Shown here in pieces: positions 1 through 16,384 of a stretch of DNA of 64,000 nt. Source of the stretch: Anaerolineaceae bacterium (GTDB lineage Bacteria; Chloroflexota; Anaerolineae; Anaerolineales; Anaerolineaceae). The DNA lies in the NCBI GenBank assembly GCA_030653365.1, contig JAURZL010000011.1, forward strand, positions 124,001 through 188,000, written 5' to 3'. The translations under genes and the position numbers were made by a program. The first letter of the stretch is position 1; the number at the start of each line of letters is the position of its first letter. Under the pieces are notes generated by a model. That model saw nothing but the letters and a program-made list of their open reading frames with translations. It had not been told where the DNA came from and made no database searches.

Positions 1-1074
1 ATTTACAAGCTGGTACCTTTCACCAGCGCACACCTTGGATTATTGGAGGACGAAGATCACTTGATTGCCCGTCTCGCTCGTGGGGAGGAAAATTGGCCGG
101 AAGATAAGAAGTTTTTCGGAAAACGCTTCGACATCTTACAGGTTTCATCTTTTAGAGCTTTATTCAGTGAAAACAAGGTAGTCTCGATACCAGACACAAG
201 ATTAACTACCACATCCATATATTTTCCAGGATATGAATTTGTTGGTAGTTGGATCGCGATTCCCCTCAAGGCAAGTGATCAAATCATAGGCTTGTGTTTG
301 TTGGAACATGTTCAACCCCATTTCTTCACACCTGATTTAATCGAATGGGCAACAGCAGTCGCCAGTCAGGCTGCGATTGCCATTCAAAATGCATGGTTAT
401 TCGAACAGGTAAGGGATGGGCGAGAACAGCTGCAGGCACTCTCACGTCAATTGGTTGAAGTGCAGGAATCCGAGCGGCAGTATATTGCCCGCGAATTACA
501 TGATGAAGCCGGACAAACATTGGCTTCCCTGATGGTCGGATTAAAAGTAATGGAGAGTGAAAGCGCTGACCAGCAAGCAGTTATTGCTCGTAGCCGTGAA
601 CTGAAACAAATAGCTGATAGTGTATTGGAAAATTTACACCGGCTATCGGTATCTTTACGACCAGCTGCGCTTGATCATCTTGGGTTAATCGCAACATTGA
701 AGCAGCACACAGAAATGATAAGTCAACAACACAATCTTCCGATACAATTTGAAGTTGTGGGAAAAATAGACAGACTTCCTTCAGAAGTGGAAATTGCCAT
801 TTATAGAATCGTTCAGGAAGCCTTAACCAACATTGTTCGGCATGCCAGCGCGACCAGAGCCGATGTTTTATTAGAACAACATGGAGATTCAATGGTCGTA
901 ATTGTGGAAGATAATGGTGTTGGATTTGATGCAAAAAACCCGGTGGTCAATCATCTTGGATTAGTGGGTATGCAGGAACGTGCTACTATGTTAGGTGGAT
1001 TGATAACTTTTGAAAGCTCTACTGATCATGGATCAACGATAAAATTGGAGGTACCATGGCCATTCGAATCCTGA
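1..1074 (+). CDS. GAF-domain sensor histidine kinase, NarL/DegS type (5' truncated by window edge)
   Basis: The frame is open from the first base, so the N-terminus lies outside the window. The visible part begins inside a GAF-like sensory domain (to about base 400). A HisKA_3 dimerisation/phosphoacceptor segment follows, with the motif ARELHDEAGQ; its phosphorylated His is at bases 499-501. A HATPase_c domain comes next, with an N-box (EALTNIVRHA) and G-boxes (EDNGVGFD, GLVGMQER). This is the NarX/DegS/LiaS layout that phosphorylates NarL/FixJ regulators. The stop overlaps the start of the downstream response regulator by 19 bp, which supports a cognate pair. No transmembrane helix is visible in the part present. 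The signal sensed is unknown. Its position before the oxidase genes makes it a candidate regulator of them, which is inference only. Confidence 0.92.
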   Translation: MYKLVPFTSAHLGLLEDEDHLIARLARGEENWPEDKKFFGKRFDILQVSSFRALFSENKVVSIPDTRLTTTSIYFPGYEFVGSWIAIPLKASDQIIGLCLLEHVQPHFFTPDLIEWATAVASQAAIAIQNAWLFEQVRDGREQLQALSRQLVEVQESERQYIARELHDEAGQTLASLMVGLKVMESESADQQAVIARSRELKQIADSVLENLHRLSVSLRPAALDHLGLIATLKQHTEMISQQHNLPIQFEVVGKIDRLPSEVEIAIYRIVQEALTNIVRHASATRADVLLEQHGDSMVVIVEDNGVGFDAKNPVVNHLGLVGMQERATMLGGLITFESSTDHGSTIKLEVPWPFES

Positions 1075-1700
1075 TTGCAGATGACCACCGCATCATGCGT
1101 GCTGGACTTAAGTCACTTATGAACGCTGATGCAGGGTTAGAGGTAGTTGGTGAAGCAACCAACAGCGAAGAAGCTATGAGGCTTACACAGGAATTACAAC
1201 CTGACATCGTATTGATGGATATAGGCATGCCTGGGAATGAAAATCTAGAGGCCACCGGAAAAATCGCAGCTTTAGATCCTATGATCCGTGTTTTAATTTT
1301 GACAATGCACGAAGACAAAGCTATGCTGCAAGAATGCCTGCGCTTGGGTGCATCAGGATACATTATCAAACGGGCAGCGGAATCTGAACTGATTGATGCA
1401 ATTTATGCTGTGCAACGCGGTATGATCTATGTTCATCCTTCGATGATCCAATCATTGGTTGCTTTACCTCAAAAATCAAACATACATCACAAAGGTGATG
1501 AGGAGCTGACAGCTCGTGAGATTGAAGTACTGTTGTTGATTGTTGATGGAAACACCAATCGACAAATATCAGATAAATTACATATCAGTGTGCGCACGGT
1601 CGAAACCCATCGCTCCAACATTATGGATAAACTCAATCTTCACAGCCGGGTGGAATTGGTTCGCTATGTGAATGAGCATCATTTACACAAACTTCGTTAA
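1056..1700 (+). CDS. NarL/FixJ family response regulator
   Basis: A 214-residue two-domain regulator. The receiver domain (about 1-120) has the acidic pair D9/D10, phosphoacceptor D55 in VLMDIGMPG, T83 and K105. The C-terminal LuxR-type helix-turn-helix (about 150-210) carries ELTAREIEVLLLI and the recognition helix region ISVRTVETHRSNIMDKL. The start overlaps the upstream kinase gene, so the two are translationally coupled and form a two-component system. All active-site residues are present, so phosphorylation-controlled DNA binding is expected. Targets are not identifiable from sequence; the nearest downstream genes are the transposase-derived gene and the multicopper oxidase fusion. Confidence 0.95.
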   Translation: MAIRILIADDHRIMRAGLKSLMNADAGLEVVGEATNSEEAMRLTQELQPDIVLMDIGMPGNENLEATGKIAALDPMIRVLILTMHEDKAMLQECLRLGASGYIIKRAAESELIDAIYAVQRGMIYVHPSMIQSLVALPQKSNIHHKGDEELTAREIEVLLLIVDGNTNRQISDKLHISVRTVETHRSNIMDKLNLHSRVELVRYVNEHHLHKLR

Positions 1701-1717
1701 TTGAATTGTGATTCTTA

Positions 1718-1736
1718 ATCCGTAGAAATTACGGAT
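1718..1736. promoter_or_regulatory. Short inverted repeat ATCCGTA-5-TACGGAT
   Basis: Seven-base perfect arms (1718-1724 and 1730-1736) separated by five bases, in the gap between the response regulator and the transposase-derived gene. A related TCCGTAT string recurs at 1761 and also upstream of the second transposase-derived gene (about 9751). It could be a binding site for the adjacent NarL-type regulator or for the transposase-derived protein. That is inference; a chance repeat is possible in AT-rich DNA. Confidence 0.3.
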
Positions 1737-1809
1737 ATGGTATCCAAACACGTATTATTCTCCGTATAAAATTGTAAAAATAAATACTGGATTAATACTG
1801 TTTTCAGAA

Positions 1810-1841
1810 TGCCTGCTTCCATTTATTGTAAATGAGCAGGT
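1810..1841 (+). terminator. Two-part hairpin downstream of the two-component operon
   Basis: An outer 8-bp stem (TGCCTGCT with AGCAGGTA, one G-T pair) encloses a second stem (CATTTA/TAAATG). It is followed by a weak T-rich stretch. It may terminate the kinase-regulator transcript, or act as a leader hairpin of the next gene, whose ribosome binding site AAGGAG begins only 14 bases further on. Confidence 0.45.
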
Positions 1842-1866
1842 ATTTTGACTATTTAAGGAGACCTAA

Positions 1867-2715
1867 ATGGAGTTTGGTTCCAAATTGAACGTGAATATCC
1901 CGATTGAAACCTCCCAGGCAGCTCACCAAATTTACAATTCTCGGAATTACTATTTACGTATCGGGGACAGTTTAGCAAGCATTGCAAATCAAATTAACCT
2001 TTCTCTTTTCGATTCAACTTCCATACTGGATCAGGATACAACGTTTCGCCATGCACTCGTCAGTACATTTCAATATGCAGAACTATTACCCGATTCGCTT
2101 GCTTCCAGTGCTTCTTTGAAACGATTGGATTGGAAATATGCACTTTACTTGCCGGTAAAACATCCTGGTATTCATAAAAATTCTCTGTGTTATTTTCGAC
2201 AGGGATTATATTCTTCAAGCGAAGCCCTAAAAGAATTTGGAAATTTACTGCAAATAATTGCTGAATTTGGTTTGTATGACAACTTGAAGAATCGTTCCTT
2301 GGAACCTGGTGAAATGATTTCCATCCTCTGTCTGATTAATCGAATTTTTCGTCTTCAAGAAGCTATGAAAGCTGGATTAAGCCTGATCAGTTCCCTGGAA
2401 CCTGATTGGCTGGCAGGTCATATCTCCCCGCATTGGTTCAACCGCTATAAAACGGGACCATTTATTTCCGTTGATTATTTTAATCCAGCAGATTTACAGA
2501 CATACGCAGATCGAATCGGCAACGATATTTTTTCCCTTATTTCCTTGATCCAGGAAAAAGATTCACCTGTATTAGCAACCAGACCAGAAATTCAATCATT
2601 AATGCATTTATTCCAAAACCAATTCGATCAAAATGGGGAAATCATAATATGGAAAAACCACGGATGTGTTAATTGTGAAAGTAACGACCTTAAGGTCGAA
2701 GGAGGTCAATTATAA
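1867..2715 (+). CDS. Domesticated IS1182-type transposase N-terminal protein (copy A, no DDE catalytic domain)
   Basis: This 282-residue protein matches the non-catalytic half of IS1182-family transposases (DUF772 type) as I know them. It has the N-terminal IPIETSQAAHQ segment, FQYAELLPDSLAS (about 68-80), RLDWKYAL (86-93) and then LCLINRIFRLQEAM followed by LEPDWLAGHISPHWFNRY (177-194), the equivalent of the family's APDWL..PEW..RY block. The RTDST segment holding the first catalytic Asp in real transposases is replaced by SLEPGEMIS (about 144-152). The protein ends, after a CVNC motif (267-270), where the DDE domain should continue. AAGGAG lies 6 bases before the ATG. A paralogue with the same truncation precedes the second oxidase gene, so this is a maintained gene, not an IS scrap. 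A DNA-binding regulatory role is inferred. Confidence 0.8.
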   Translation: MEFGSKLNVNIPIETSQAAHQIYNSRNYYLRIGDSLASIANQINLSLFDSTSILDQDTTFRHALVSTFQYAELLPDSLASSASLKRLDWKYALYLPVKHPGIHKNSLCYFRQGLYSSSEALKEFGNLLQIIAEFGLYDNLKNRSLEPGEMISILCLINRIFRLQEAMKAGLSLISSLEPDWLAGHISPHWFNRYKTGPFISVDYFNPADLQTYADRIGNDIFSLISLIQEKDSPVLATRPEIQSLMHLFQNQFDQNGEIIIWKNHGCVNCESNDLKVEGGQL

Positions 2716-2722
2716 GAAAATG
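2699..2722 (+). other. Conserved SD-like element after transposase-derived gene A
   Basis: AAGGAGG, five bases, then TATAAGAAA and ATG. It covers the last codons and stop of gene A. Almost the same string follows gene B at 10733-10755, where it is wholly non-coding. The only reading frame it could serve here is a 19-codon open frame with an over-long spacing. Function unknown. Confidence 0.35.
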
Positions 2723-2863
2723 AGAACAAACCTTAAAAATGATTGTCGTCTGGCGGAAAAAATTCCCCATGTAGTTTGAAAAACTATCTTTCCACCCAAA
2801 TTTATTGAGAAGATATAAAAAAAATTAATAAAAACAGAAAGAAAAATCTAAAGGAGAACCAAG

Positions 2864-5800
2864 ATGTCTAAATATAAAATTATAAATTTATTGGTATTGA
2901 TGACCCTGGTCTTATCCCTCTTTATGAGTGGTAGCGATCAGGTACTGGCACAAACCACAACTCCGCCTGGGCAGGCAAATAAACCTGAAAAAAAGGATAA
3001 AATCACCCAGGCCGATCGTGATGCAGCGGCTGAACGCGCAGCTGCTGATGGTTTTACATTGGAAGCATCGGCTGTTGCTGCAATGGAAATGGGTGGAATG
3101 TCTGCACCACGCTACTTCAGCCATCCCAACTATGCCAACAGCCCGTTACCCAGAAATGTGGTTGCGGACTGGAATGCCATTGCACAGGATTTATTGCAAC
3201 CACAGATGGCTGGAATGCCAATGGCAATGGATGGTATTTCAATGGCTACGGCCTTTGTGTACCTTTCTTACATGCAGGCTGCTGTTTATGATGCACTCGT
3301 TGCGATTGAGGGAGGTTACCAACCGTATGCTTTTTCTGCAACTCCCAATCCAAACGCTTCGGTCGAAGCAGCGGTGTCCGCTGCTGCTTTTGGCGTGCTC
3401 AACCATTATGTTCCGAGTGTAACCCTTACCGGGATATACGATGCAATGGTAGCAGCTATTGCTGACAGTCCAGAGAAGGACGCTGGGATTGCTGTCGGTC
3501 AGGCAGCTGCTGATGCAATCATTGCATTACGTTCTGATGATGGTTTGCTCGAACCAGATACCTACACTGTTCCTGCACCTGGAATTGGTGTCTGGCAACC
3601 AAACGTGATGCCTGATGGTACAGTCGTTCCACCGGTAGATCCCTGGATGGCGAAATTAAAGCCTTTTTTGCGTTCTACACCTGATTTTTATCGCCCACCT
3701 GCGCCGTATGCCCTTGACAGCGCTGAATATGCTGCTGATTTAAATGAGGTCAAATCGCTTGGTGGCGCAATGAGTATGGACAGAACTCCAGAACAAACTG
3801 CAATAGCAAATTTCTGGACCACCAATATGGTCATTCAGATGAATGTTGCCTATCGTCAACTCGCAGAAACCCGCGGATTGAACCTGCTGGATACTGCTCG
3901 TTTGATGGCTTTGGGTAACATGGCTGCCAGCGATAGTTTGATTTTGACTTTTGATTCTAAATATACTTACAACTTCTGGCGCCCAATGGCTGCGATTCGT
4001 CAAGCGGATTTAGATGGAAACGATGCTACTACCGGAGATTCAACCTGGATGCCAGCAGTGATGACACCAAACTTTCCTGAATACATTACCGGTCATAGCT
4101 CCTTTATGTCAGCTCAGGCTGAGGTATTAACCCATGTGTTAGGCACAGATCTAATTGATGTTGATCTGACCAGTACTGCTACCAATACCACCCGCCATTT
4201 TAACTCTGCTTCTGAACTTAGAACGGAAGTTGGTAATGCCAGAATTTGGGGAGGATTACATTTCCGCACTTCAAATAATATTGCTGAAGGTTTAGGTCAA
4301 CAACTTGTAGTGGATGCTCTAGCAACTAACTTCGTTGCCGATCCGGGATCTGATACCGGTGTGCATGCTGCAGTTGCTGGTGGTATTCGCAAGTTTGTTG
4401 ATACATTGCCTGGTTTGGGCGCTGGAAGCGCAAATAACCTGGGGCAGTATATCCCGGTTGCAGTTGCTGATACGATAACTTACCCTGGTTCGGATTATTA
4501 CGAGATCGCAGTTGTGCAATATGAACAACAATTGCACTCTGATCTACCACCGACCTTATTGCGTGGGTATGTACAACTTTCAACCGGTGTGGTTCCAGGT
4601 GATCAGGTGTCATTGAGCAATGTACTTAAGGATGGAACACTTGTACCAACCGGGTTTAACGGAGTCACACCTCCTCACTACCTGGGACCAACCATTGTGG
4701 CCACCAAGGATAAACCAGTTCGCATCAAATTCTACAACCTGCTGCCGACCGGTGTGGATGGAAATCTCTTCATCCCGGTTGACACCACTGTCATGGGTTC
4801 TGGAATGGGTCAATATGCAGATATGACCATGGATACCAATCCACAAGTCCCGATGTGTGATATGGAAACAATCACCGATGATTGTTACACTGAAAACCGA
4901 GCTACCCTGCACTTACATGGTGGTATTTCGCCCTGGATCAGTGATGGGACTCCTCATCAATGGGTTACTCCAGCTGGTGAGAATACACCCTATCCTCAGG
5001 GTGTCAGTGTTGTCCCGGTTCCTGATATGGACGATTCAGGTGCAGATGATGATGGTGTCATGACTTTCTACTACACCAATCAACAGAGTGCCCGTTTGAT
5101 GTTCTACCATGATCACTCCTGGGGCATTACCCGCCTGAACGTGTATGCTGGTGAAGCTGCTCCTTACATCATCACCGATGAAACTGAACAGGCTTTACTT
5201 GACGCTGGTCTCATTCCAGGCGCTGCTGATACAATTCCACTGGTTATTCAAGATAAGACTTTTGTTCCTAGTATTGTCCAACTCGCTGAAGAAGACGAGA
5301 CCTGGGATATGACTCGCTGGGGTGATACTGGAGATCTATGGTTACCCCATGTTTACTCTCCTGCGCAAAACCCGGGTGATTCCTCCGGTGTCAACCAATT
5401 TGGACGCTGGGCGTATGGTCCCTGGTTCTGGCCGCCAACGATTGGCATTGATAATGGACCTGTGCCAAATCCATATTATGATGATACTTGTGACCCGGAT
5501 GTTACCTGGTGTGAACCGCCACTGATGCCAGGCACACCATACAATTCCATGGGTATGGAAGCTTTCATGGATACTCCTGTGGTGAATGGAACAGCTTACC
5601 CAACACTGGAAGTTGATCCTAAATCATACCGCTTCCGTGTCCTCAATGCTGCCAATGACCGCTTCTTCAACTTATCGCTCTATCAGGCAATCGATGCCAC
5701 TGGTGCAGTTTGTGATGGAACCATCGTCCCTGTGGCTGAATCAACCGGAGAGACCTGTACAGAGGTTGCTCTAGCGGATGTTGCAGCTGCATTGGATGAT

Positions 5801-8035
5801 CCGACTATCTTCCCCACACCCGTGAGTGGTTCTGAAGGTCCCGAGTGGATTCAAATTGCTAACGAAGGTGGTTTCTTACCAGCTCCGGCAGAATTACCAG
5901 CACAACCTACTACCTGGGTCAATGATCCCACATTGTTCAATGCTGGTAATGTCGACCTGCATTCATTACTGATCGCACCAGCGGAACGAGCGGATGTGAT
6001 TGTGGACTTTTCTGCTTTCGCTGGACAGACATTGATTCTCTATAATGATGCCCCAGCAGCCTTCCCAGCTCGTGACCCGCGCTATGATTACTACACTGGC
6101 GATGGTGATTTCCGTGACACCGGTGGTACTCCACCAACCTTACCTGGTTATGGTCCCAATACCCGTACAGTAATGAAGATTGTGGTGGCTGATATTGCAG
6201 CAGAGCCAGCATTTGACCGGATTGGGCTTGAGAATGCTTTCAAAGCCGAGAGCCTGGGTGGTTTGGGTGTATTCCAAAATGGTCAACACCCGATCATTGT
6301 CGGCCAGGGTGCTTACAACTCTGCATACGGAACATCTTTCCAAAATAATGGTCCAATGGCTGGTTTAGCACAAATCTTTGATACCTCCCTGACATTCAAT
6401 ACTCTTTCAGGCAACGAGCTGACCATGCCTTTTGAACCGAAAATGATCCAGGATGAAATGGGTGAAGCTTTTGAACATGAGTATGGTCGTATGAGTGGTA
6501 ACCTGGGTGTAGAATCACCCAATCCACAGGCTGGAAATCAGAATATGATTCTGTATGGCTTTACTTCACCACCCACGGAAATCATCAATGGAATTGAGTT
6601 ACCCCCTGGAGTAGACCTTCAACCAATTACTACAATTGATGATGGTACTCAAATCTGGAAGTTCACCCATAATGGTGTGGATACACATCCAATTCACTTC
6701 CACCTGTATGACGTGCAATTGCTCAACCGTGTTGGTTGGGATGGTATCATCCGTAAACCGGACTTGAATGAGTTGGGTTGGAAGGACACAGTACGGGTCG
6801 CCCCGTTGGAGGATACCATTGTCGCCTTGCGGCCTTTGATCCCGCAAATCCCCTGGGATCTTCCCAACAGCATTCGCCTATTGGATCCTTCCATGCCTGA
6901 TGGCGCAGTTATTGCCAGTTCCACCCAGGCAGAAGCTGCTGGATTGGTCCCAATGGCATTTGATCCCACGGGCGAACCGATCGATATTTTCAACCACTAT
7001 GTTAACTTTGGTTGGGAGTATGTGATGCATTGTCATATCCTCAGTCATGAAGAAATGGATATGATGCGACCGGTTGCCGTAGGTGTTGCTCCGTTGCCTC
7101 CTTCCAACCTAACTGCGGCTCGGACAGGCAATGGAAGAAATCGAATTGTGACGCTTAACTGGCTTGACAATTCCTTAAATGAAACTTCATTTACTGTTCA
7201 GCGAGCATTAACTCCGGATGGTCCTTTTGAAACGATTCAATTCATACAATCCTCATCTGGGCCGTCAGCTGGATCAACGATGTCCTATATTGACCCGATT
7301 GGTAACACCAACACTGTTTTCTTCTACCGGGTCTTTGCCAGCAATACCATTGGTGATACCTGGGATTACAGTGACCCTGCCATCAATGAAGGGGCAAGTT
7401 TCCCGGTCTTGAATCTCGATTCCGCTTACTCCAATATTGCATCATCTGGTTCAACAGCTCCAACACCACCTGCTGCTCCAACAAACTTATCAGCAACATT
7501 ACAGACTGGACCACAGGCATTGTTAACCTGGACAGATAATTCTAACGACGAGACTGGTTTTGTGATCGAGCGTTCAGTCGATGGAGTTAATTTCTCTGTA
7601 CTGGCACAGGTTGGTGCCGGAGTGGTCTCTTACACTGATACAACCATTTATGCTGGGTCCACCTTCACCTATCGGGTGAAAGCTGTGAATTCAGCTGGTT
7701 CATCAGCGTACTCGAACACAGCCAGTGTCTCGCTTGCATTACCAGCAGCTCCTTCCAATCTAACCGCTGGAGCAGTACGTCGCGGTAATAATGCACGCGT
7801 CACCCTTACCTGGGTAGATAATGCTGACAACGAGAATGGTTTCCGTATTCAATGGGCTTCTGATGCAGGCTTTGCTAACATCCTGATGACAACAACTGCC
7901 GCGGTAAATGCCACCACATTTACCACCAGCAACCTGAGTCGCAATACGGCATACTACTTCCGCATTCAGTCATTCAATGCTTCAGGTGATTCAGCATGGG
8001 TGAATGCATCACCATTCCCCATCACGACACCGTAA
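2864..8035 (+). CDS. Secreted vanadium-haloperoxidase-like / multicopper oxidase / FnIII fusion protein (copy 1)
   Basis: 1,723 residues. A Sec signal peptide spans 1-29 (likely cleavage VLA|Q). An all-helical PAP2/vanadium haloperoxidase-like domain (about 90-500) has the five vanadate-ligand positions: K366 and R373 in KYTYNFWRP, H411 in TGHSS, R460 and H466 in RIWGGLHF. A complete multicopper oxidase follows (about 560-1405), with HLHG (683-686), HDH (749-751), HPIHFH (1275-1280) and HCHILSHEEMDM (1389-1400). These supply all type 1, 2 and 3 copper ligands, with M1400 as the axial residue. Three FnIII domains end the protein (about 1410-1723); no LPXTG or anchor is seen. AAGGAG lies just before the ATG. 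The substrate is unknown; metal, phenolic or halide oxidation are options. The haloperoxidase domain could instead be a phosphatase relative, because the ligands are shared. Confidence 0.9.
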   Translation: MSKYKIINLLVLMTLVLSLFMSGSDQVLAQTTTPPGQANKPEKKDKITQADRDAAAERAAADGFTLEASAVAAMEMGGMSAPRYFSHPNYANSPLPRNVVADWNAIAQDLLQPQMAGMPMAMDGISMATAFVYLSYMQAAVYDALVAIEGGYQPYAFSATPNPNASVEAAVSAAAFGVLNHYVPSVTLTGIYDAMVAAIADSPEKDAGIAVGQAAADAIIALRSDDGLLEPDTYTVPAPGIGVWQPNVMPDGTVVPPVDPWMAKLKPFLRSTPDFYRPPAPYALDSAEYAADLNEVKSLGGAMSMDRTPEQTAIANFWTTNMVIQMNVAYRQLAETRGLNLLDTARLMALGNMAASDSLILTFDSKYTYNFWRPMAAIRQADLDGNDATTGDSTWMPAVMTPNFPEYITGHSSFMSAQAEVLTHVLGTDLIDVDLTSTATNTTRHFNSASELRTEVGNARIWGGLHFRTSNNIAEGLGQQLVVDALATNFVADPGSDTGVHAAVAGGIRKFVDTLPGLGAGSANNLGQYIPVAVADTITYPGSDYYEIAVVQYEQQLHSDLPPTLLRGYVQLSTGVVPGDQVSLSNVLKDGTLVPTGFNGVTPPHYLGPTIVATKDKPVRIKFYNLLPTGVDGNLFIPVDTTVMGSGMGQYADMTMDTNPQVPMCDMETITDDCYTENRATLHLHGGISPWISDGTPHQWVTPAGENTPYPQGVSVVPVPDMDDSGADDDGVMTFYYTNQQSARLMFYHDHSWGITRLNVYAGEAAPYIITDETEQALLDAGLIPGAADTIPLVIQDKTFVPSIVQLAEEDETWDMTRWGDTGDLWLPHVYSPAQNPGDSSGVNQFGRWAYGPWFWPPTIGIDNGPVPNPYYDDTCDPDVTWCEPPLMPGTPYNSMGMEAFMDTPVVNGTAYPTLEVDPKSYRFRVLNAANDRFFNLSLYQAIDATGAVCDGTIVPVAESTGETCTEVALADVAAALDDPTIFPTPVSGSEGPEWIQIANEGGFLPAPAELPAQPTTWVNDPTLFNAGNVDLHSLLIAPAERADVIVDFSAFAGQTLILYNDAPAAFPARDPRYDYYTGDGDFRDTGGTPPTLPGYGPNTRTVMKIVVADIAAEPAFDRIGLENAFKAESLGGLGVFQNGQHPIIVGQGAYNSAYGTSFQNNGPMAGLAQIFDTSLTFNTLSGNELTMPFEPKMIQDEMGEAFEHEYGRMSGNLGVESPNPQAGNQNMILYGFTSPPTEIINGIELPPGVDLQPITTIDDGTQIWKFTHNGVDTHPIHFHLYDVQLLNRVGWDGIIRKPDLNELGWKDTVRVAPLEDTIVALRPLIPQIPWDLPNSIRLLDPSMPDGAVIASSTQAEAAGLVPMAFDPTGEPIDIFNHYVNFGWEYVMHCHILSHEEMDMMRPVAVGVAPLPPSNLTAARTGNGRNRIVTLNWLDNSLNETSFTVQRALTPDGPFETIQFIQSSSGPSAGSTMSYIDPIGNTNTVFFYRVFASNTIGDTWDYSDPAINEGASFPVLNLDSAYSNIASSGSTAPTPPAAPTNLSATLQTGPQALLTWTDNSNDETGFVIERSVDGVNFSVLAQVGAGVVSYTDTTIYAGSTFTYRVKAVNSAGSSAYSNTASVSLALPAAPSNLTAGAVRRGNNARVTLTWVDNADNENGFRIQWASDAGFANILMTTTAAVNATTFTTSNLSRNTAYYFRIQSFNASGDSAWVNASPFPITTP

Positions 8036-8050
8036 CACCTGTATTAACCT

Positions 8051-8094
8051 TTTCAGGAAAGGGAGAAATCCCTTTCCTGAAATTTCATTTTTTT
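8051..8094 (+). terminator. Intrinsic terminator after oxidase fusion 1
   Basis: A perfect 14-bp stem (8051-8064 with 8069-8082) has a GAAA loop and is followed by a T-rich tract ending in seven T. It lies 16 bases after the stop codon, so the peroxidase downstream is probably transcribed from its own promoter or by read-through. Confidence 0.9.
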
Positions 8095-8151
8095 GGAGAT
8101 TCCCCATAAATCTTGAATGATATCTGATTTCTTGAACAGGGAGAGTTCAAC

Positions 8152-9597
8152 ATGAATAAGCTTATCTTTCTTCTGATGGGTTTCATTTTGGTAAGTGAAT
8201 TGATTATCGGTGGATACAATTCCACCGCGATCGCTCAGGATGCTGAGGAAATCAGCAGCCTGGAATTGTTAGGAAAAGCGATTTTCTTCGACGCTGATAT
8301 CTCACTAAATGGGACACAGTCCTGTGCCACCTGCCATGCTCCTGAGGTGGGTTGGACAGGTCCGGATGCACTGGTGAACCTGGAAACCGTTGTTTACCAG
8401 GGTGCATTACCTAACCATTTTGGCAACCGTAAACCTCCTGCTTCAGGTTACGCTGGAGACAGTCCGATCCTTTATTTCAGTGAGGAAGCTGGAGAATGGA
8501 TTGGCGGTATGTTTTATGATGGACGCGCTACTGGCGAGGTTTTAGGTGATCCATTAGCTGAGCAAGCTCAGGGACCATTCTTAAATCCACTGGAGCAGGC
8601 GATCCCCAATGCACAGGTATTGTGCGTCAAGATCAAACAAGCGGATTATGCTGATCTATTTAAAGAGGTTTGGGGAGACCGCTCTCTCGACTGTGCCAAA
8701 GATGTGGATGGAGTGTATGAACGCATTGGCAGATCTGTTGCCGCCTATGAAAGAAGTGCTGAGGTTAATCCCTTCAGCTCGAAGTTTGATCTTTTCTGGG
8801 ACAATGCAATCGCAGCTGGAAAAGATGTCACCAAAATCAAATTCACCTCTGGTGGCGGAGGCGGAATGGGTGGTGGTGGCATGGGACCCGGAGGTGGTGG
8901 TATGGGCGGTGGTGGAAATACTGATCCTTACCGCTGGCAGAATTATCGTGGTCTGGGTTTGACTGATTCTGAATTGCAGGGTCTGGCAGCCTTTAATGAT
9001 CCTAACCGGGCAAATTGCGCTTCCTGCCATTCCATCGAGCATGGCTCAGCTGGGTATCCCCTATTCACCAGTTTCACCTATGACAATGTTGGAATGCCGA
9101 AAAATCCAGATAATCCGTTTTATGCCATGCCTAAAGCCTGGAATCCCGATGGAGCAGACTTTGTGGACTATGGTCTGGGAGGATTTCTTCAGGGTGCTGG
9201 ATACACTAATGAGGTGTATTTACAGCAGCTGGGGAAATTTAAAGTACCATCTTTACGCAATGTAGATCTGCGGCCTTCAGATGACTTCCTGAAAGCCTAT
9301 GGTCACAACGGCTATTTCAAATCACTGGAGGACATCATTCTCTTCTACGCCTGGCGTGGATTAACCATGAATGGCGGCCTGGGAATGGGTGGCCGGGGAA
9401 TGGATGGATGCTCCGGTGGCGGAATGGGCGGCGGTGGCATGGGTGAAGGAGGATTCCATGAAATGATGTGTGATCCGGACCTGTTTCCAGCTCCAGAAGT
9501 CGACCAGAACCTTGCCCAAATGAATCACTTTAATATGATGGATCAAAACAATATCCTGGCTTTCCTCAAGACACTTTCAGATGGATTTATCGAATAA
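8152..9597 (+). CDS. Exported di-haem cytochrome c peroxidase / MauG-like protein with Gly-Met-rich inserts
   Basis: 481 residues with a signal peptide (1-29, TAIAQ). Two c-type haem sites are seen: C58-C61-H62 (CATCH) and C289-C292-H293 (CASCH), the arrangement of the bacterial CCP/MauG family. These reduce H2O2 or carry out high-valent haem oxidations in the periplasm or outside the cell. Two Gly/Met-rich low-complexity inserts (234-255 and 406-433) are not usual for the family. The first precedes the second haem domain and the second sits in the C-terminal part. The protein lies between two multicopper oxidase fusions on the same strand, which suggests a shared oxidative pathway, perhaps peroxide removal or electron acceptance. 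MauG-type cofactor maturation is an alternative. Confidence 0.9.
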   Translation: MNKLIFLLMGFILVSELIIGGYNSTAIAQDAEEISSLELLGKAIFFDADISLNGTQSCATCHAPEVGWTGPDALVNLETVVYQGALPNHFGNRKPPASGYAGDSPILYFSEEAGEWIGGMFYDGRATGEVLGDPLAEQAQGPFLNPLEQAIPNAQVLCVKIKQADYADLFKEVWGDRSLDCAKDVDGVYERIGRSVAAYERSAEVNPFSSKFDLFWDNAIAAGKDVTKIKFTSGGGGGMGGGGMGPGGGGMGGGGNTDPYRWQNYRGLGLTDSELQGLAAFNDPNRANCASCHSIEHGSAGYPLFTSFTYDNVGMPKNPDNPFYAMPKAWNPDGADFVDYGLGGFLQGAGYTNEVYLQQLGKFKVPSLRNVDLRPSDDFLKAYGHNGYFKSLEDIILFYAWRGLTMNGGLGMGGRGMDGCSGGGMGGGGMGEGGFHEMMCDPDLFPAPEVDQNLAQMNHFNMMDQNNILAFLKTLSDGFIE

Positions 9598-9632
9598 TTG
9601 ATCCTGATTTGCCTTAAAACAATTGAATATGA

Positions 9633-9675
9633 AATCCAAATCCTGGAAGTTATTTAACCTTTTAGGATTTGGATT
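9633..9675 (+). terminator. Hairpin after the di-haem peroxidase gene
   Basis: A perfect 12-bp inverted repeat (AATCCAAATCCT with AGGATTTGGATT) with a 19-base loop, 35 bases after the stop. The T-tract is poor, so it may be a weak terminator or an mRNA-stabilising 3' hairpin. Confidence 0.5.
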
Positions 9676-9768
9676 AATTCTCAATGAATTAATTTCTTAT
9701 TGAATTCACACAAAAACCTTTTCATTCATCACCTGATCTGTACCAACTTATCCGTATTAAATACTGAG

Positions 9769-9796
9769 TTGACGTCTAAAAATCGGATATTATCTA
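9769..9796 (+). promoter_or_regulatory. Candidate sigma70-type promoter for transposase-derived gene B
   Basis: TTGACG (9769-9774), 16-base spacer, TATCTA (9791-9796). The predicted leader before the start at 9901 is about 100 nt. The match is moderate and rests on pattern only. Confidence 0.35.
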
Positions 9797-9900
9797 CGTA
9801 TATTATCACAAATAGAAATCCTGATTTCCTACTGATTTAAATAGACCTAATTTTTTGTATTCTATATGTAATCGAAAACTATTTTTGAGAGGAATCATTA

Positions 9901-10725
9901 TTGAAATTATCATCCGGATTTGTAGTTAATATTCCAAATGAAACTGCACAAGCAGCTCACCAATTGTTCTCCAATAATAATCGGTATCTTCAAATTGGGG
10001 ATTGTTTGGAGAGTATTGTGAATCAAATTGACTTAGCCCTTCTTGATCCATCCTCGATAGCAGACAAAGAATTTGTTTTTCGGTTGGCATTAACAAGCGC
10101 ATTCCAATATGCCGAATTGTTACCTGATTCTTTAGCTTCCCTTGCAACAATGAAAAGAATTGATTGGAAGTACGCTCTGTATCTGCCAACAAATCATCCG
10201 GGAATAAATAAAACAGCCTTATGTAAATTCCGTCAATTATTATATACCTCTGAAAAAGCACTATCTGAATTTCGTCATCTTTTACGAATTCTTACTGAAT
10301 TTGGAATTTTCAGTCATTTAAAAGATCAATCTTTAAATCCAAAAGATATCATTTCGGTGATCTGTCAGATAAATCGATTATCACGGTTACAGGAAGCTTT
10401 AAAAGTTGGTATAAGCCTGGTCAGTGCGGTAGCTCCAGATTGGTTGGCAAGTAATGTGGCTTCCCACTGGTTTGCACGCTATCGAACGGGACAAATGGAT
10501 CTGATTGATCCTTGTGATTATTACAATCTTAAATATTTTGCAGAAAAAACAGGGACAGATATCTTTTTGTTTCTGCAGGTGCTACATAAAAAGGATTCCC
10601 CTGACCTTTTGAATCGTTCAGAAATTCAATATTTATCCCAATTATTCAAGCAACAATATCTTCAGGATGGCGAAATCCTGCGTTGGAAAGATTCAGGTTG
10701 TATCAATTGTATTAGAAACATCTAG
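9901..10725 (+). CDS. Domesticated IS1182-type transposase N-terminal protein (copy B, no DDE catalytic domain)
   Basis: 274 residues, TTG start with AGAGG upstream. It is a clear paralogue of the 1867-2715 product along its whole length. It shares FQYAELLPDSLAS, RIDWKYALYLP, QINRLSRLQEAL and AVAPDWLASNVASHWFARY, and ends with CINC (267-270) at the same residue numbers as CVNC in copy A. The block equivalent to the transposase RTDST catalytic segment reads SLNPKDIIS, so the first acidic residue of the DDE triad is absent and the rest of the catalytic domain is missing. Both copies have stayed open for about 275 codons, and each sits directly upstream of an oxidase fusion. A sequence-specific DNA-binding role near that gene is the simplest inference. 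No experiment is known to me. Confidence 0.8.
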   Translation: MKLSSGFVVNIPNETAQAAHQLFSNNNRYLQIGDCLESIVNQIDLALLDPSSIADKEFVFRLALTSAFQYAELLPDSLASLATMKRIDWKYALYLPTNHPGINKTALCKFRQLLYTSEKALSEFRHLLRILTEFGIFSHLKDQSLNPKDIISVICQINRLSRLQEALKVGISLVSAVAPDWLASNVASHWFARYRTGQMDLIDPCDYYNLKYFAEKTGTDIFLFLQVLHKKDSPDLLNRSEIQYLSQLFKQQYLQDGEILRWKDSGCINCIRNI

Positions 10726-10732
10726 ATGAATT

Positions 10733-10755
10733 AAGGAGGCAAGTTATAAGAAATG
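10733..10755 (+). other. Conserved SD-like element after transposase-derived gene B
   Basis: AAGGAGG, five bases, TATAAGAAATG, starting 8 bases after the stop of gene B. It matches the element at 2699-2722. The open frame after the ATG is only 11 codons. A TTGACA (10760-10765) follows almost immediately and could be a -35 box for the next gene. Confidence 0.35.
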
Positions 10756-10829
10756 TATATTGACAATATCATTCAATCATTTGATTAATTATTTTTTTCT
10801 TTCAAAGCATTATTAAAAGGAAAACCGAC

Positions 10830-13800
10830 ATGTCTAAAAATAAAATTCTCAATGTATTTATATTATTTACGCTGATCTTTTCACTTTTTATGAGTGGTAA
10901 CAGCCAGGTGCAGGCTCAAACCGTAAATCCACCTGACGGTATTGTTAGGCCTGAAAAACAGGAAAAAATTACCCAGGAAGACCGCCAGGCTGCAGCTGAT
11001 CGCGCTTCGGAGGGTGGTTTTTCATTGGAAGCGTCTGTAACGATGGACGCACCAATGAGTATGGATATGGATGGTGATGTTCCTCGCTATTTCAGTCACC
11101 CCAATTATGCTAACAGTCCATTGCCCGGAAACATTGTGTCCGACTGGAATGCAATCGCTCAGGACGTATTACAACCACCGATGGCGGGTATGAGCATGGG
11201 TGACATCTCTATGGCAACTGCATTTGTTTACTTATCTTACACGCAGGCAGCGGTTTACAATGCCTTGATAGCCATCGAAGGTGGTTATTATGCGTATGAT
11301 GGAAATCCTACTTTTGTGACCTTTATTCCAATGTTAGTGGGTGGTGGTACAGATGCGGCGGTTGGTGGTGAAATTAGTACAACTAATTTTATTACCGATA
11401 GCACCGCGGCTCGTGAGGCTGCTGTAGCCACCGCAGCCTATAAAGTATTAATCCATTACCTGCCAGGCAACATGGTATTACCGGTGAAATATGCAGAATC
11501 CCTGGCAACCATTCCCGATGGACCAGAAAAAACACTTGGTATTTCTATCGGTGACCAGGCTGCGGCTGAAATTATTGCTTTAAGAGAAAATGATGGTTTA
11601 TTGGCACCTGACACCTACACACCGCCTGCACCAGGACCTGGTGTTTGGGAGCCCACCATGCTATTAATGGATGGTGTCACTTTTGCTCCTCCCGTTGATC
11701 CCTGGATGGCTCAATTGAAGCCATTTTTGCGAGATACTCCGGATCAATATCGCCCTGTTCCTCCACCAGCACTTGACAGCCCTGAATACGCAGCAGATTT
11801 GAATGAGGTCAAGGAAATAGGCAGCGCTGGGAGTTTGACCCGCACACCAGAACAGACCGAGGTGGCCAAATTCTGGACGGATAACATGGTTATCCAGACC
11901 AACAAGTCGTACCGCAATATTGCAGAAACACGCAGTCTGAATTTGCTGGATACAGCACGCCTAATGGTGATGGGTAACATGGTTGCTACAGACAGTCTCA
12001 TCGCTACGTTTGACTCCAAATATTTCTACAATTTTTGGCGACCTGTCACCGCGATTCAAAGAGCCGACACAGACGGAAACGCTGCGACCGATGCAGATCC
12101 CACCTGGATGCCAGCTGTAATGACACCGAATTTTCCCGAGTATGTGGCAGGGCATGGATCTTTTGTTTCCGCTCAAGCAGAAATGCTCACGCAATTCTTT
12201 GGAACAGACCAGATAGAGCTGGATCTGGAGAGCAGTGTCACCGGCACAACCAGACACTTTTCTACAGCAGAGGAACTGCGTACAGAAATCGTGAATGCCA
12301 GGACCTGGGGTGGATTGCATTTCCGCAATTCCAGCGAACTTGCAGTGTCCCTGGGGCAAGAAATTGTTCAGAATGCATTCGCGCATTACTTACGGGATAA
12401 TCCATTTAACGATACAGGTGAACATGCTGAAGTTTCTGGTGGCATTCGCAAGTTTGTCGATGAATTATCAATGTTTTGTGACCCGAGCACTGGACCATGC
12501 ATAGGTACTTCCACTCTCGGTCAATTTATGCCGATTGGTGTGCCGGATACAACTACCTACCCTGGATCAGATTATTATGAGATTGCTCTGGTACAGTATA
12601 GAGAACAAATGCACTCCGATTTGCCAGCAACTTACCTCCGTGGGTATGTGCAACTTTCTACTAGTGTAGTGGATGCTTTGGTTGTAGATGAACCGGTACA
12701 ACTCACAAATGTTCTTTTAGATGGGACCGAAGTGACCCTTACTGATTTCTTTGGGGTTACTCCACCTCACTATTTAGGACCAACCATTATTGCAACCAAA
12801 AATAAACCAGTCCGAATCAAGTTCTATAACTTATTACCGACAGGGATTGAAGGTGATCTATTCTTACCGGTAGACACGACTGTTATGGGTGCTGGAATGG
12901 GACCAGATCTTGTGATGCCAGAACTCACACCAGAAGAGGAAGTAGAAGAATACCTGAATCCAATGTGTGGTATGGCTTATGACGGAGCAGGTGATCGCAT
13001 CGCCAAAAACGTAGATTGTTTCGCTGAAAACCGGGCTACCCTGCATTTGCATGGTGGCATCACTCCATGGATCAGTGATGGTACCCCACACCAATGGATT
13101 ACTCCGGCTAATGAGCTTACTTCCTATCCTCAAGGTGTCAGCGTTCAACCAGTTCCTGATATGTTTGACACTGGTGACCCGGTTGATGGCGTCATGACCT
13201 TTTATTACACCAATCAGCAATCAGCCCGTTTGATGTTCTACCATGACCATGCCTGGGGCATCACCCGGTTGAACGTGTACGCAGGTGAAGTTGCTCCATA
13301 CTTGATTTCTGATGAGACAGAACAATCGTTGATTGAAGGTGGCTTCATCCCTGGACCAGAAAGCACAATTCCGCTGGTTGTTCAGGACAAGACATTTGTG
13401 CCTGGTGCCAAACAACTATCTGTATCCGATGAAACCTGGGATGTAGAACGATGGGGTGGACCAGGAAACTTGTGGCTCCCACATGTCTACTCTCCTGCGC
13501 AAAATCCGGGTGACGCATCTGGTGTCAACCAGTTTGGCCGGTGGGCATATGGACCCTGGTTCTGGCCGCCAACGTCAGATATTGACTCTCCTCCCGTTCC
13601 TAATCCCTACTATGATGAGGATTGTGATCCGGATGAGCAGTGGTGTGAACCTCCCATGATGCCGGGAGTACCTTATAACTCAATGGGTATGGAAGCATTT
13701 ATGGATACACCAGTGCTCAATGGGACGGTTTATCCAACCCTGACGGTTGATCCAAAATCATATCGTTTCCGAATTCTTAATGGAGCGAATGACCGCTTCT

Positions 13801-16097
13801 TCAACCTCTCATTCTACCAAGCAGTGGATGCGAACGGTGTGGTATGTGATGCAGCCAATCTAGCCCCTGCACCAGAGTCAACTGGAATTATCTGTACGGA
13901 AGTTGCATTGGCGGATGTTGAAGCAGCACTGGAAGATCCGACCATTATGCCTACTCCTGTTAGTGGTTCTGAAGGTCCTGATTGGGTACAGATCGGTACG
14001 GAAGGTGGTTTCTTACCTGCTCCTACAGTTCTTCCTGCTCAACCAACAACCTGGGTGAATGACCCGACGGTATTCAATGCTGGAAATGTTGATCTACACT
14101 CGTTATTGATCGCTCCAGCAGAGCGTGCAGATGTCATTGTTGACTTCTCAGCCTATGCTGGTCAGACACTGATTCTATACAATGATGGACCAGCAGCATT
14201 CCCAGCCCGTGACCCACGCTATGATTACTTCACTGGCAATGGCGACTACCGCGATACAGGGGGAGCTTCTTCCACGTTACCCGGTTACGGTCCCAATACC
14301 CGCACGATGATGAAGATAGTGGTGGCACCTGCTACTCCAGCACCAGCTTTCAACCTCACTGCACTTGAGACTGCATTCAAAGCTGTAAGTCTGGGTGGTT
14401 TGGGTGTGTTTGAAGAAGGACAACACCCAATCATTGTTGGTCAGGGTGCTTACAACACAGCTTACGGAACTTCGTTCCCCCACAATGGTCTTATGAATGG
14501 AACCGTACAAATCTATGATACATCTTTGACATTTAGAACACTTCTAGGCACGTCTTTGACGATTGAATTCAAACCCAAAATGATCCAGGATGAGATGGGT
14601 GAGGCATTTGACCCGGAGTACGGACGTATGAGTGGATTCCTCGGGGTTGAGACGCCAGATGCTCAGGCAGGCAACCAGAACATGATCCTCAATGGATATG
14701 TGATGCCACAGACTGAGGTTCTGCGTGGTATTGAATTGCCACCAGGTGTTGAATTGACACCGATTTCCACAGCAGATGATGGAACGCAAATCTGGAAGTT
14801 CACCCATAATGGTGTGGATACACATCCAATTCACTTCCACCTGTTCGATGTACAGCTCCTCAACCGAGTCGGTTGGGATGGCATCATCCGCAAGCCGGAC
14901 GCCAATGAATTGGGTTGGAAGGATACAGTCCGGATCAGTCCATTAGAAGACACCATTGTCGCACTTCGCCCATTGATTCCACAAATTCCCTGGGATCTAC
15001 CGAACAGTGTGCGATTACTCGACCCCTCAATGCCGGAAGGTGCTACTTTAGATCAGGGTAGAATAGGAATGTTTGACCCACTTGGAAATTCGGTGACGGT
15101 AACCAATCGCTTTGTTAATTTTGGTTGGGAATACGTTTTCCATTGTCACATCCTCAGCCATGAAGAAATGGATATGATGCGTCCGATGTCGGTCGGCGTC
15201 AGGCCGAGAACGCCAACCAATCTAGCTGGAATTCTAACTGGAAGTGGAGTAACACAAACCGTGGTTTTGACCTGGCAAGATAACTCATTGAATGAGACTT
15301 CCTTTTCCGTTCAGCGCTCTCTTGCAGGGGCTGACGTATGGAGTACTATCGATGTGGTTCCAGCAGATACAGAAACCTACAATGATCTGATTGGTGACAC
15401 AATTGAACGGTTTGATTACCGTGTGTTTGCTTCCAACGTTATTGGCGATACATTTGATTATGCAGATCCAGCGGTTGGCTTCCCCAATACCAGCATGGAT
15501 TCAGGATTCTCTAACACTATTGTGATCGATACAGTTGCACCTGGAGATCCCACTGACTTGGTAGGTGAATTGCAAGCAGGCCCACAGATTTCGTTGACCT
15601 GGCTTGACAATGCTAATACAGAGACTGGTTTCGAAATCGAACGCAATGTCGATGGTTTAGGATTTGAACCGCTCATAACCCTCGCGGCAGACACAATCAG
15701 TTACATTGATACTGATATTGTTTCAGGTTCAGCTTATGTCTACCGGGTTGCTTCAGAAAACAGTGCTGGTTTATCCGCTTGGGCGGTATCCAACTTGATA
15801 GAAACTGTCCCACCAGCTGCCCCTACTGACTTGACTGCTACTTTGGAAGCTGGTCCGCAGGTCGTTTTGAACTGGACAGATGCGTCAATAAATGAGACGG
15901 GCTACGTCATTGAACGTGACGATGGTTTAACTGGCTATGTTCTGCTAACAACACTGGCAGCAAATAACAACACCTTCACTGACATCACTGTTCTTCCTGG
16001 TTCGTTATACATGTACCGCATTGCAGCGGAAAACAATGCTGGGTTATCAGAATGGGTGGAATTTACATTAAATCCAATTGAAATTCCAATTCCATAA
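10830..16097 (+). CDS. Secreted vanadium-haloperoxidase-like / multicopper oxidase / FnIII fusion protein (copy 2)
   Basis: 1,755 residues, a close paralogue of the 2864-8035 product with the same domain order. A signal peptide spans 1-29 (VQA|Q). The haloperoxidase-like domain has K397/R404 (KYFYNFWRP), H442 (AGHGS), and R491/H497 (RTWGGLHF). The multicopper oxidase has HLHG (739-742), HDH (805-807), HPIHFH (1332-1337) and HCHILSHEEMDM (1438-1449). Three C-terminal FnIII domains follow (about 1455-1755). It differs from copy 1 by insertions in the haloperoxidase domain (about 158-195) and by an acidic segment (about 699-709) before HLHG. It is preceded by transposase-derived gene B. Copy 2 has no peroxidase gene after it. 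Both copies look catalytically intact, so they may differ in substrate or expression. Confidence 0.9.
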   Translation: MSKNKILNVFILFTLIFSLFMSGNSQVQAQTVNPPDGIVRPEKQEKITQEDRQAAADRASEGGFSLEASVTMDAPMSMDMDGDVPRYFSHPNYANSPLPGNIVSDWNAIAQDVLQPPMAGMSMGDISMATAFVYLSYTQAAVYNALIAIEGGYYAYDGNPTFVTFIPMLVGGGTDAAVGGEISTTNFITDSTAAREAAVATAAYKVLIHYLPGNMVLPVKYAESLATIPDGPEKTLGISIGDQAAAEIIALRENDGLLAPDTYTPPAPGPGVWEPTMLLMDGVTFAPPVDPWMAQLKPFLRDTPDQYRPVPPPALDSPEYAADLNEVKEIGSAGSLTRTPEQTEVAKFWTDNMVIQTNKSYRNIAETRSLNLLDTARLMVMGNMVATDSLIATFDSKYFYNFWRPVTAIQRADTDGNAATDADPTWMPAVMTPNFPEYVAGHGSFVSAQAEMLTQFFGTDQIELDLESSVTGTTRHFSTAEELRTEIVNARTWGGLHFRNSSELAVSLGQEIVQNAFAHYLRDNPFNDTGEHAEVSGGIRKFVDELSMFCDPSTGPCIGTSTLGQFMPIGVPDTTTYPGSDYYEIALVQYREQMHSDLPATYLRGYVQLSTSVVDALVVDEPVQLTNVLLDGTEVTLTDFFGVTPPHYLGPTIIATKNKPVRIKFYNLLPTGIEGDLFLPVDTTVMGAGMGPDLVMPELTPEEEVEEYLNPMCGMAYDGAGDRIAKNVDCFAENRATLHLHGGITPWISDGTPHQWITPANELTSYPQGVSVQPVPDMFDTGDPVDGVMTFYYTNQQSARLMFYHDHAWGITRLNVYAGEVAPYLISDETEQSLIEGGFIPGPESTIPLVVQDKTFVPGAKQLSVSDETWDVERWGGPGNLWLPHVYSPAQNPGDASGVNQFGRWAYGPWFWPPTSDIDSPPVPNPYYDEDCDPDEQWCEPPMMPGVPYNSMGMEAFMDTPVLNGTVYPTLTVDPKSYRFRILNGANDRFFNLSFYQAVDANGVVCDAANLAPAPESTGIICTEVALADVEAALEDPTIMPTPVSGSEGPDWVQIGTEGGFLPAPTVLPAQPTTWVNDPTVFNAGNVDLHSLLIAPAERADVIVDFSAYAGQTLILYNDGPAAFPARDPRYDYFTGNGDYRDTGGASSTLPGYGPNTRTMMKIVVAPATPAPAFNLTALETAFKAVSLGGLGVFEEGQHPIIVGQGAYNTAYGTSFPHNGLMNGTVQIYDTSLTFRTLLGTSLTIEFKPKMIQDEMGEAFDPEYGRMSGFLGVETPDAQAGNQNMILNGYVMPQTEVLRGIELPPGVELTPISTADDGTQIWKFTHNGVDTHPIHFHLFDVQLLNRVGWDGIIRKPDANELGWKDTVRISPLEDTIVALRPLIPQIPWDLPNSVRLLDPSMPEGATLDQGRIGMFDPLGNSVTVTNRFVNFGWEYVFHCHILSHEEMDMMRPMSVGVRPRTPTNLAGILTGSGVTQTVVLTWQDNSLNETSFSVQRSLAGADVWSTIDVVPADTETYNDLIGDTIERFDYRVFASNVIGDTFDYADPAVGFPNTSMDSGFSNTIVIDTVAPGDPTDLVGELQAGPQISLTWLDNANTETGFEIERNVDGLGFEPLITLAADTISYIDTDIVSGSAYVYRVASENSAGLSAWAVSNLIETVPPAAPTDLTATLEAGPQVVLNWTDASINETGYVIERDDGLTGYVLLTTLAANNNTFTDITVLPGSLYMYRIAAENNAGLSEWVEFTLNPIEIPIP

Positions 16098-16148
16098 ACA
16101 CCAATTTTTAAAGGGAGGGATCATCCTTCCGCCATAACAATTTTCTAC

Positions 16149-16191
16149 AATCAATCCTCAAGAACATCAAACTCTTGAGGATTGATTTTTA
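16149..16191 (+). terminator. Strong intrinsic terminator after oxidase fusion 2
   Basis: A perfect 15-bp stem (16149-16163 with 16173-16187), 9-base loop and a run of T. It ends the oxidase transcription unit. Confidence 0.9.
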
Positions 16192-16384
16192 TCTTCCCAA
16201 AGCAAAAAATTTCCTTCCAGATAACAATTTCCAAAAATAGATTACGAGAGGGAATTCGATAAAATAAGAATAATATGATGGTAATAGTCGTAATTAAAAA
16301 AACCATGCCAAAACATATGACTCAGGAGGGATGTGAATAGTAAAAATTTCCTTTAAATTTAACCAAATATCTTTGGAGGTTGTT

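Follow-up and report, generated by a model that had tools for sequence, protein, structure and literature searches.

A family of truncated IS1182-type transposases linked to kinase–regulator pairs and giant redox genes, with a likely role in regulation

We analyzed a 64,000-nucleotide stretch of DNA from an Anaerolineaceae bacterium (contig JAURZL010000011.1, positions 124001-188000; hereafter, the window), whose genome comprises 4.5 Mb on 20 contigs. Two genes in the window encode short IS1182-related proteins, for which we coined the name TnpN, and each stands before the gene of a giant oxidase. The locus contains the following features.

1..1074, + strand: histidine kinase, C-terminal part (GAF, HisKA_3 and HATPase_c; Pfam); the gene begins upstream of the window, and the whole protein has ~757 amino acids (aa) and is membrane-bound by eye
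1056..1700, + strand: response regulator, LuxR/NarL-type (Response_reg and GerE; Pfam)
1718..1736, + strand: candidate operator ATCCGTAGAAATTACGGAT, with the core CGTAG-N3-CTACG (one mismatch) at 1721-1733
1867..2715, + strand: TnpN copy 1, N-terminal half of an IS1182-type transposase, 282 aa, ATG start (homology and tree alignment)
2188-2190, 2329-2331, 2665-2667 and 2674-2676, + strand: TnpN copy 1 codons for C108, C155, C267 and C270
2864..8035, + strand: giant oxidase 1, 1723 aa, with a weak vanadium-chloroperoxidase-like region, a multicopper oxidase and FN3 domains (domain search); signal peptide by eye
8152..9597, + strand: di-haem MauG/CCP-like peroxidase with Gly/Met-rich inserts (domain search)
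9901..10725, + strand: TnpN copy 2, 274 aa, TTG start (homology and tree alignment)
10222-10224, 10363-10365, 10699-10701 and 10708-10710, + strand: TnpN copy 2 codons for the same four cysteines
10830..16097, + strand: giant oxidase 2, 1755 aa, laid out as oxidase 1 (domain search)

When the reading frames were re-read, both TnpN genes were open, shared their end point and oxidase neighbor, and carried a CxxC motif at residues 267-270 (CVNC and CINC), all as a preliminary description of this DNA had stated. The two proteins are 54% identical over 273 aligned residues without a gap. They are the only TnpN copies detected in the genome, and no full-length IS1182 transposase gene was found there, both by single-sequence search (E ≤ 10) and by family profile (E ≤ 1e-15). 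Full-length transposase neighbors, which the preliminary description had named as a sign of recent decay, are thus not found in this genome, nor is a typical terminal inverted repeat found in window positions 1-17000.

We found that library searches show the ancestry of TnpN more clearly for the family than for the two window copies. Alone, the latter score weakly in family libraries (P0002 reaches E = 0.11 for DUF772 and E = 0.24 for IS1182; P0001 matches neither). At E ≤ 0.1, however, 11 of 13 aligned family members matched DUF772 (best 9.4e-12) and 11 of 13 matched the NCBIfam IS1182 model (best 1e-11), while P0001 aligned over query residues 4-264 with annotated plasmid IS1182 transposases (E = 8e-18, 28% identity). 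The data support the earlier claim that TnpN corresponds to the non-catalytic half of an IS1182 transposase; the profile search proposed alongside it succeeded for the family and only weakly for the window copies themselves.

The truncation removes the catalytic part. The alignment of full-length relatives runs to model position ~264, beyond which they continue through the SPYD...KR region; the short open reading frames stop no more than a few tens of residues away from model position ~264-271 and have no DDE core. All 38 full-length relatives have the R[TS]D[SA] catalytic motif and none of the 18 short proteins does, in agreement with the earlier statement that the RTDST segment and the DDE domain are missing. 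By our own count, about 31 of the 38 full-length elements have terminal inverted repeats that are TGATACTGTTGGCGAA-like; this type of repeat is not seen in window positions 1-17000, and among the nine TnpN loci that we scanned just one has a match (L050:393), lying ~4.5 kb from tnpN. In comparison with IS1182 transposases (DUF772 N-terminal domain; NCBIfam NF033551), TnpN is homologous over residues ~4-264, including the DWKYAL block, but it lacks the catalytic motif, the DDE core and, in the scanned window stretch, typical inverted repeats, while it has a set of four cysteines and a place after a kinase/regulator pair. Solved structures contained no significant sequence relative of TnpN (best E = 0.23), phages and viral contigs contained none that we could find, and four proteins had no match in PHROGs.

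We identified 18 distinct family members in 17 genomes, together with an additional fragment beside an oxidase gene at a contig edge (L123). The searches covered 61 relatives, 396 genomes of the class, 400 of the order, 400 of the phylum and 119 relatives of an Acidobacteria bin, as well as a pattern scan of named genomes that gave 22 loci, 11 of them TnpN; further matches in the phylum sample, such as open frames of 317-372 aa in multi-copy genomes like G1082, were left unclassified. The named records comprise 10 Chloroflexota bins and the one Acidobacteria bin, so that the family recurs in distantly related bacteria. Its distribution is sporadic: by our reading of the matches, 12 of 400 genomes in the order sample carry TnpN, as does 1 of the 119 relatives of the Acidobacteria bin. 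The single member whose record is not named Chloroflexota, L051 (L177), is without all four cysteines and may be an early or transferred form.

In a tree of the N-terminal half, built without C108, C155, the catalytic columns and the tail, one branch parts the 18 short from the 38 full-length rows (support 99/95), and the same split is present in 98% of 200 bootstrap trees. We placed the root among the transposases because these are widespread, the tree itself not fixing its root. Resolution inside the short group is poor, except that the window pair groups with L073, L043 and L072; the short rows L081, L045 and L058 have long branches, and the window pair is odd in its amino-acid make-up. A single old exaptation of a transposase half is well supported by these sequence comparisons. 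The domestication proposed in the preliminary description therefore stands, while its picture of two separate halves gives way to one old family with two local paralogues.

Selection has acted on the window pair. Differences between the copies are 0.40, 0.21 and 0.55 at first, second and third codon positions, respectively, and the NG86 method gives a non-synonymous divergence (dN) of 0.38 and a saturated synonymous divergence (dS) of 2.04; past this pair, dN/dS is saturated. The low ratio agrees with the exaptation that had been proposed, as do the common branch of 18 members, the kept neighbors and the lack of a full-length IS1182 transposase in the genome. In a neutral simulation of 300 frames, 0.3% remained open at 67% aa identity (mean of 6.4 stops) and none at 46% identity (mean of 10.2 stops), on either side of the observed 54%. 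We asked whether the two genes could be decaying insertion-sequence remnants that are open by chance, as the weak library scores of the window copies might suggest. The same truncation in 17 genomes, neighbors shared in most loci, the single branch, the low dN/dS and the expectation of 6 to 10 stops near the observed identity make this extremely improbable, and we consider it ruled out by synteny, tree and selection.

The neighborhood of TnpN extends beyond the oxidase. On the upstream side, the most frequent direct neighbor is a pair of genes for a histidine kinase and a LuxR-type regulator, seen at 12 of the 16 loci that could be assessed (window copy 1, L043, L044, L045, L046, L047, L048, L050, L052, L058, L120 and L122); the pair is not adjacent at window copy 2, L051, L118 and L121, while L049 and L119 begin at a contig start. 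Unlinked pairs occur at the end of another contig in G354 (the genome of L049), on another contig in G598 (that of L121) and ~21 kb from TnpN in the genome of L051. The kinases of TnpN loci share at least 43% identity with each other and at most 33% with kinases of oxidase loci that have no TnpN; for the regulators, the corresponding values are at least 46% and at most 42%. Across 12 loci, divergence of kinase and regulator tracks that of TnpN (Mantel r = 0.59, p ≤ 5e-5; kinase against regulator, r = 0.54), although this test cannot part co-inheritance from shared species history. The genome of L118, G617, is a bin of 92% completeness and lacks a clear representative of the regulator subfamily, the best candidate reaching 47% and its kinase 35%. 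The preliminary description had singled out the oxidase as the shared neighbor; that pairing holds, within a wider neighborhood.

Of the 16 loci that could be assessed downstream of TnpN (L044 and L122 end there), 13 encode a large redox or FN3 protein on the strand of TnpN. Ten of these have multicopper-oxidase proteins: both window loci, L043, L046, L048, L049, L052, L058, L118 and L121. L045 has a small ORF of 202 aa followed by a 1762-aa FN3 protein with cytochrome-like motifs, L120 has FN3-bearing ORFs with similar motifs (by eye), and L047 has a 1909-aa protein followed by two genes that are oxidase-like by eye. Signal-like N-termini, judged by eye, suggest that these giant redox proteins are exported. 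Both window oxidases match the vanadium chloroperoxidase family at scores under the Pfam cut-off.

We determined how often the two genes occur together, taking the two order samples of 400 genomes each as the same draw on the basis of recurring handles. The giant oxidase was found in 30 of 400 genomes (E ≤ 1e-60), and both genes in seven (G000, which is the genome of the window, G003, G055, G587, G598, G617 and G655), compared to 0.9 expected (hypergeometric P = 4e-6, with the relatedness of genomes ignored). In the 61 relatives, all four oxidase loci found come after a TnpN, so that the gene-oxidase pairing recurs in related genomes, where the preliminary description had proposed to look for it. 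At the family-profile threshold of the order search, TnpN is missing from 23 of these 30 genomes, and therefore the oxidase does not need it. We collected 20 upstream regions of oxidase loci with no preceding TnpN, from 19 genomes plus the second copy of G655; the upstream regions of the TnpN-less genomes G525, G590, G605 and G638 lie outside this set. None of the 20 contained even a weak TnpN match (E ≤ 0.1). In 11 of them (L155, L156, L158-L161, L163-L166 and L170), another small protein of 126-186 codons, stop to stop, with the pattern 'KKVIVWGQDDLLSWAV...DW.V' stands just before the oxidase gene, indicating that TnpN occupies a slot often held by a different small protein. By eye it resembles a degenerate receiver; four tested examples had no meaningful Pfam match.

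Four cysteines distinguish TnpN from its relatives. In the joint alignment, C108 is a cysteine in 16 of 18 short and 3 of 38 full-length proteins, C155 in 16 of 18 and none of 38, and the C-terminal pair is present in 16 of 18, compared to none of 38 at that place. The pair takes the form CxxC in 14 proteins, CxC in L072 (CNC) and CxxxC in L050 (CGSACCDRAC), and the complete set, counting these two tail variants, occurs in 16 of 18 short proteins and in no full transposase. Because the cysteines are all present or all absent, they suggest one site, which may bind a metal or an iron-sulfur (Fe-S) cluster (Zn, Cu and Fe-S being alike possible). A further residue, E241, is kept in all 18 short proteins and in 2 of 38 full ones. 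The AlphaFold model of P0001 is confident (mean predicted local distance difference test, pLDDT, 86.6; predicted template-modelling score, pTM, 0.85), mostly helical with one hairpin; local confidence falls below 50 at residues 1-4 and 272-282 and to ~68 at 191-200.

The gaps between regulator and TnpN share CGTAG/CTACG half-sites, often arranged as CGTAG-N3-CTACG. We counted 60 half-sites in 18 regions before TnpN, compared to a mean of 19.6 expected (maximum of 33 in 500 Markov resamplings), for a motif that was defined after inspecting 13 of these regions; the five regions outside motif discovery contain 21, compared to 6.1 expected (maximum of 16 in 1000 resamplings). Exact palindromes occur at 4 distinct loci among 174 locus records, all upstream of TnpN; when up to one mismatch is allowed, the scanned loci contain 13 distinct sites, 10 of which precede TnpN. 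Four control sets gave counts at the chance level: 6 half-sites where 6.6 were expected in 12 of the 20 collected oxidase loci lacking TnpN, 3 where 2.0 were expected in 11 stretches separating TnpN from the next gene, 22 where 18.6 were expected before full IS1182 genes, and 7 where 6.2 were expected in front of 11 kinase genes. In each of the 12 TnpN genomes that we searched, the one-mismatch extended palindrome was less frequent than its reversed control, and consequently no large regulon is visible.

Other origins of the half-sites were considered. They are not the ends of IS1182, which are TGATACTGTTGGCGAA-like. Palindromes acting as plain terminators are possible by eye in L045, L048 and L122, while the shared arms and the lone half-sites would remain unexplained. 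A fixed promoter element, TTTCTACGCTTACA, matched well in a few loci only, and we do not claim it. A full IS1182-like transposase, L019, is flanked on both sides by ATTTCTACG (L175, 7898 and 9724), which equals the half-site before TnpN; with ~1 such 9-base match expected by our own arithmetic, this may be chance.

Either TnpN or the response regulator may bind the half-sites. L051, which has no adjacent pair, has two one-mismatch sites, and further sites lie on the contig bearing its unlinked regulator. The notion that the motif follows TnpN rather than the regulator is weakened by the related unlinked regulators and by a palindrome after the regulator in the genome of L051, and the sites may therefore be the regulator's. 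LuxR/NarL regulators suit palindromic half-sites, and on that basis the regulator alone could occupy them, with TnpN exapted as a co-regulated adaptor, chaperone or metallation factor for an exported copper/haem enzyme. Such a role would accommodate the related regulators that the L051 genome, G598 and G354 carry, though not beside TnpN on its contig, the palindrome behind one of them, and the genes close to the L121 and L123 oxidases that by eye resemble copper-export P-ATPases. It fits less well with L118, which has half-sites in a genome with no clear member of the regulator subfamily, with the lack of enrichment upstream of the kinases, and with the retained transposase half being the part usually credited with DNA recognition. 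We regard an accessory role of this kind as rather unlikely, though worth serious consideration.

Truncated transposases can also act as inhibitors, as in IS50 Inh and IS1 InsA, and by analogy TnpN might counter the transposition of IS1182, either as a dominant-negative inhibitor or as an immunity factor; a 563-aa open relative does occur in one TnpN genome, G362. Because our searches of the window's genome detected no full-length IS1182 transposase, the half-sites are unlike the inverted repeats of these elements, and the constant kinase/regulator neighbors have no place in such a model, we consider it very improbable.

Our preferred reading, to which we assign a probability of about 60%, is that TnpN is a dead IS1182 transposase half turned DNA-binding co-regulator, linked to the kinase/regulator pair, equipped with a four-cysteine metal or Fe-S site and tuning the TnpN-oxidase operon. 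One old event most likely took the DDE core off an IS1182-type transposase; the lineage would next have acquired the four cysteines and become coupled with a single subfamily of histidine kinases and LuxR-type regulators. The kinase would pick up an environmental cue and the phosphorylated regulator would work at the TnpN promoter, with its clustered half-sites. TnpN, most likely a small DNA-binding co-regulator, would bind at the half-sites or nearby and adjust expression of a co-transcribed TnpN-oxidase operon. Its C108, C155 and C-terminal pair would together make up a metal or Fe-S site that keeps or switches the truncated fold. Judged from sequence, regulation within the kinase-regulator-redox locus is the likely job of TnpN, while DNA binding and oxidase control by TnpN itself are plausible and the half-site clustering is only suggestive of them. 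A more specific version, in which the recognition domain has become a four-cysteine sensor, so that TnpN acts as a metal- or redox-responsive co-regulator with its dedicated kinase/regulator pair at CGTAG-N3-CTACG and controls giant extracellular copper/haem enzymes, is one that we advance tentatively, at somewhat less than even odds.

Several observations weigh against the co-regulator reading, in addition to the definition of the half-site motif after inspection and the confounding of the Mantel test by species history. No half-site lies before L058, and window copy 2 and L047 have one each. Regulators related to the TnpN-linked subfamily occur unlinked in the genome of L051 (54% identity) and in G598 (52%), and in the former the palindrome just after the regulator has two mismatches. 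L050, L051 and L119 have no adjoining giant redox gene, L047 joins L051 in being without all four cysteines, and the P0001 model has no fold match in the PDB at E ≤ 0.001.

Related cases of transposon proteins put to new use help to place TnpN. TldR proteins (Wiegand 2024) are reportedly exapted, nuclease-dead TnpB repressors. In one account (PMC13418256), TldR appears as a transposon protein that has lost catalysis and become linked to non-transposon genes, a description that applies likewise to TnpN. The difference is that TldR is RNA-guided, whereas TnpN, coupled to a two-component system, would be guided by protein. The two also belong to unrelated protein families. IS1 InsA and IS50 Inh resemble TnpN in being the DNA-binding part of a transposase without catalysis, but they regulate their own element, while TnpN resides in chromosomal redox loci. 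Among the titles and abstract openings of open papers on domesticated or exapted transposases, on IS1182/DUF772 proteins with kinases or regulators and on this oxidase type, we found no description of TnpN, nor of any other half of a bacterial DDE transposase that has a conserved role in the chromosome. The family offers a case in which loss of catalysis, probable gain of a metal site and coupling to a two-component system can be traced on a tree; it provides concrete operators and cysteines as test targets and marks a set of Chloroflexota giant redox enzymes as probably regulated loci.

Three further observations concern the loci themselves. By eye, the TnpN-oxidase loci L121 and L123 have nearby genes that resemble those for a copper-transporting P-type ATPase and a membrane protein associated with it. 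In the window, the MauG/CCP-like peroxidase gene (8152-9597) stands between the two TnpN-oxidase units, and its long Gly/Met-rich inserts are possibly metal-binding. A near-identical stretch, GGAGG..AA.TTATAAGAAA, is found at the end of TnpN copy 1 (2700-2720) and just past TnpN copy 2 (10735-10754).

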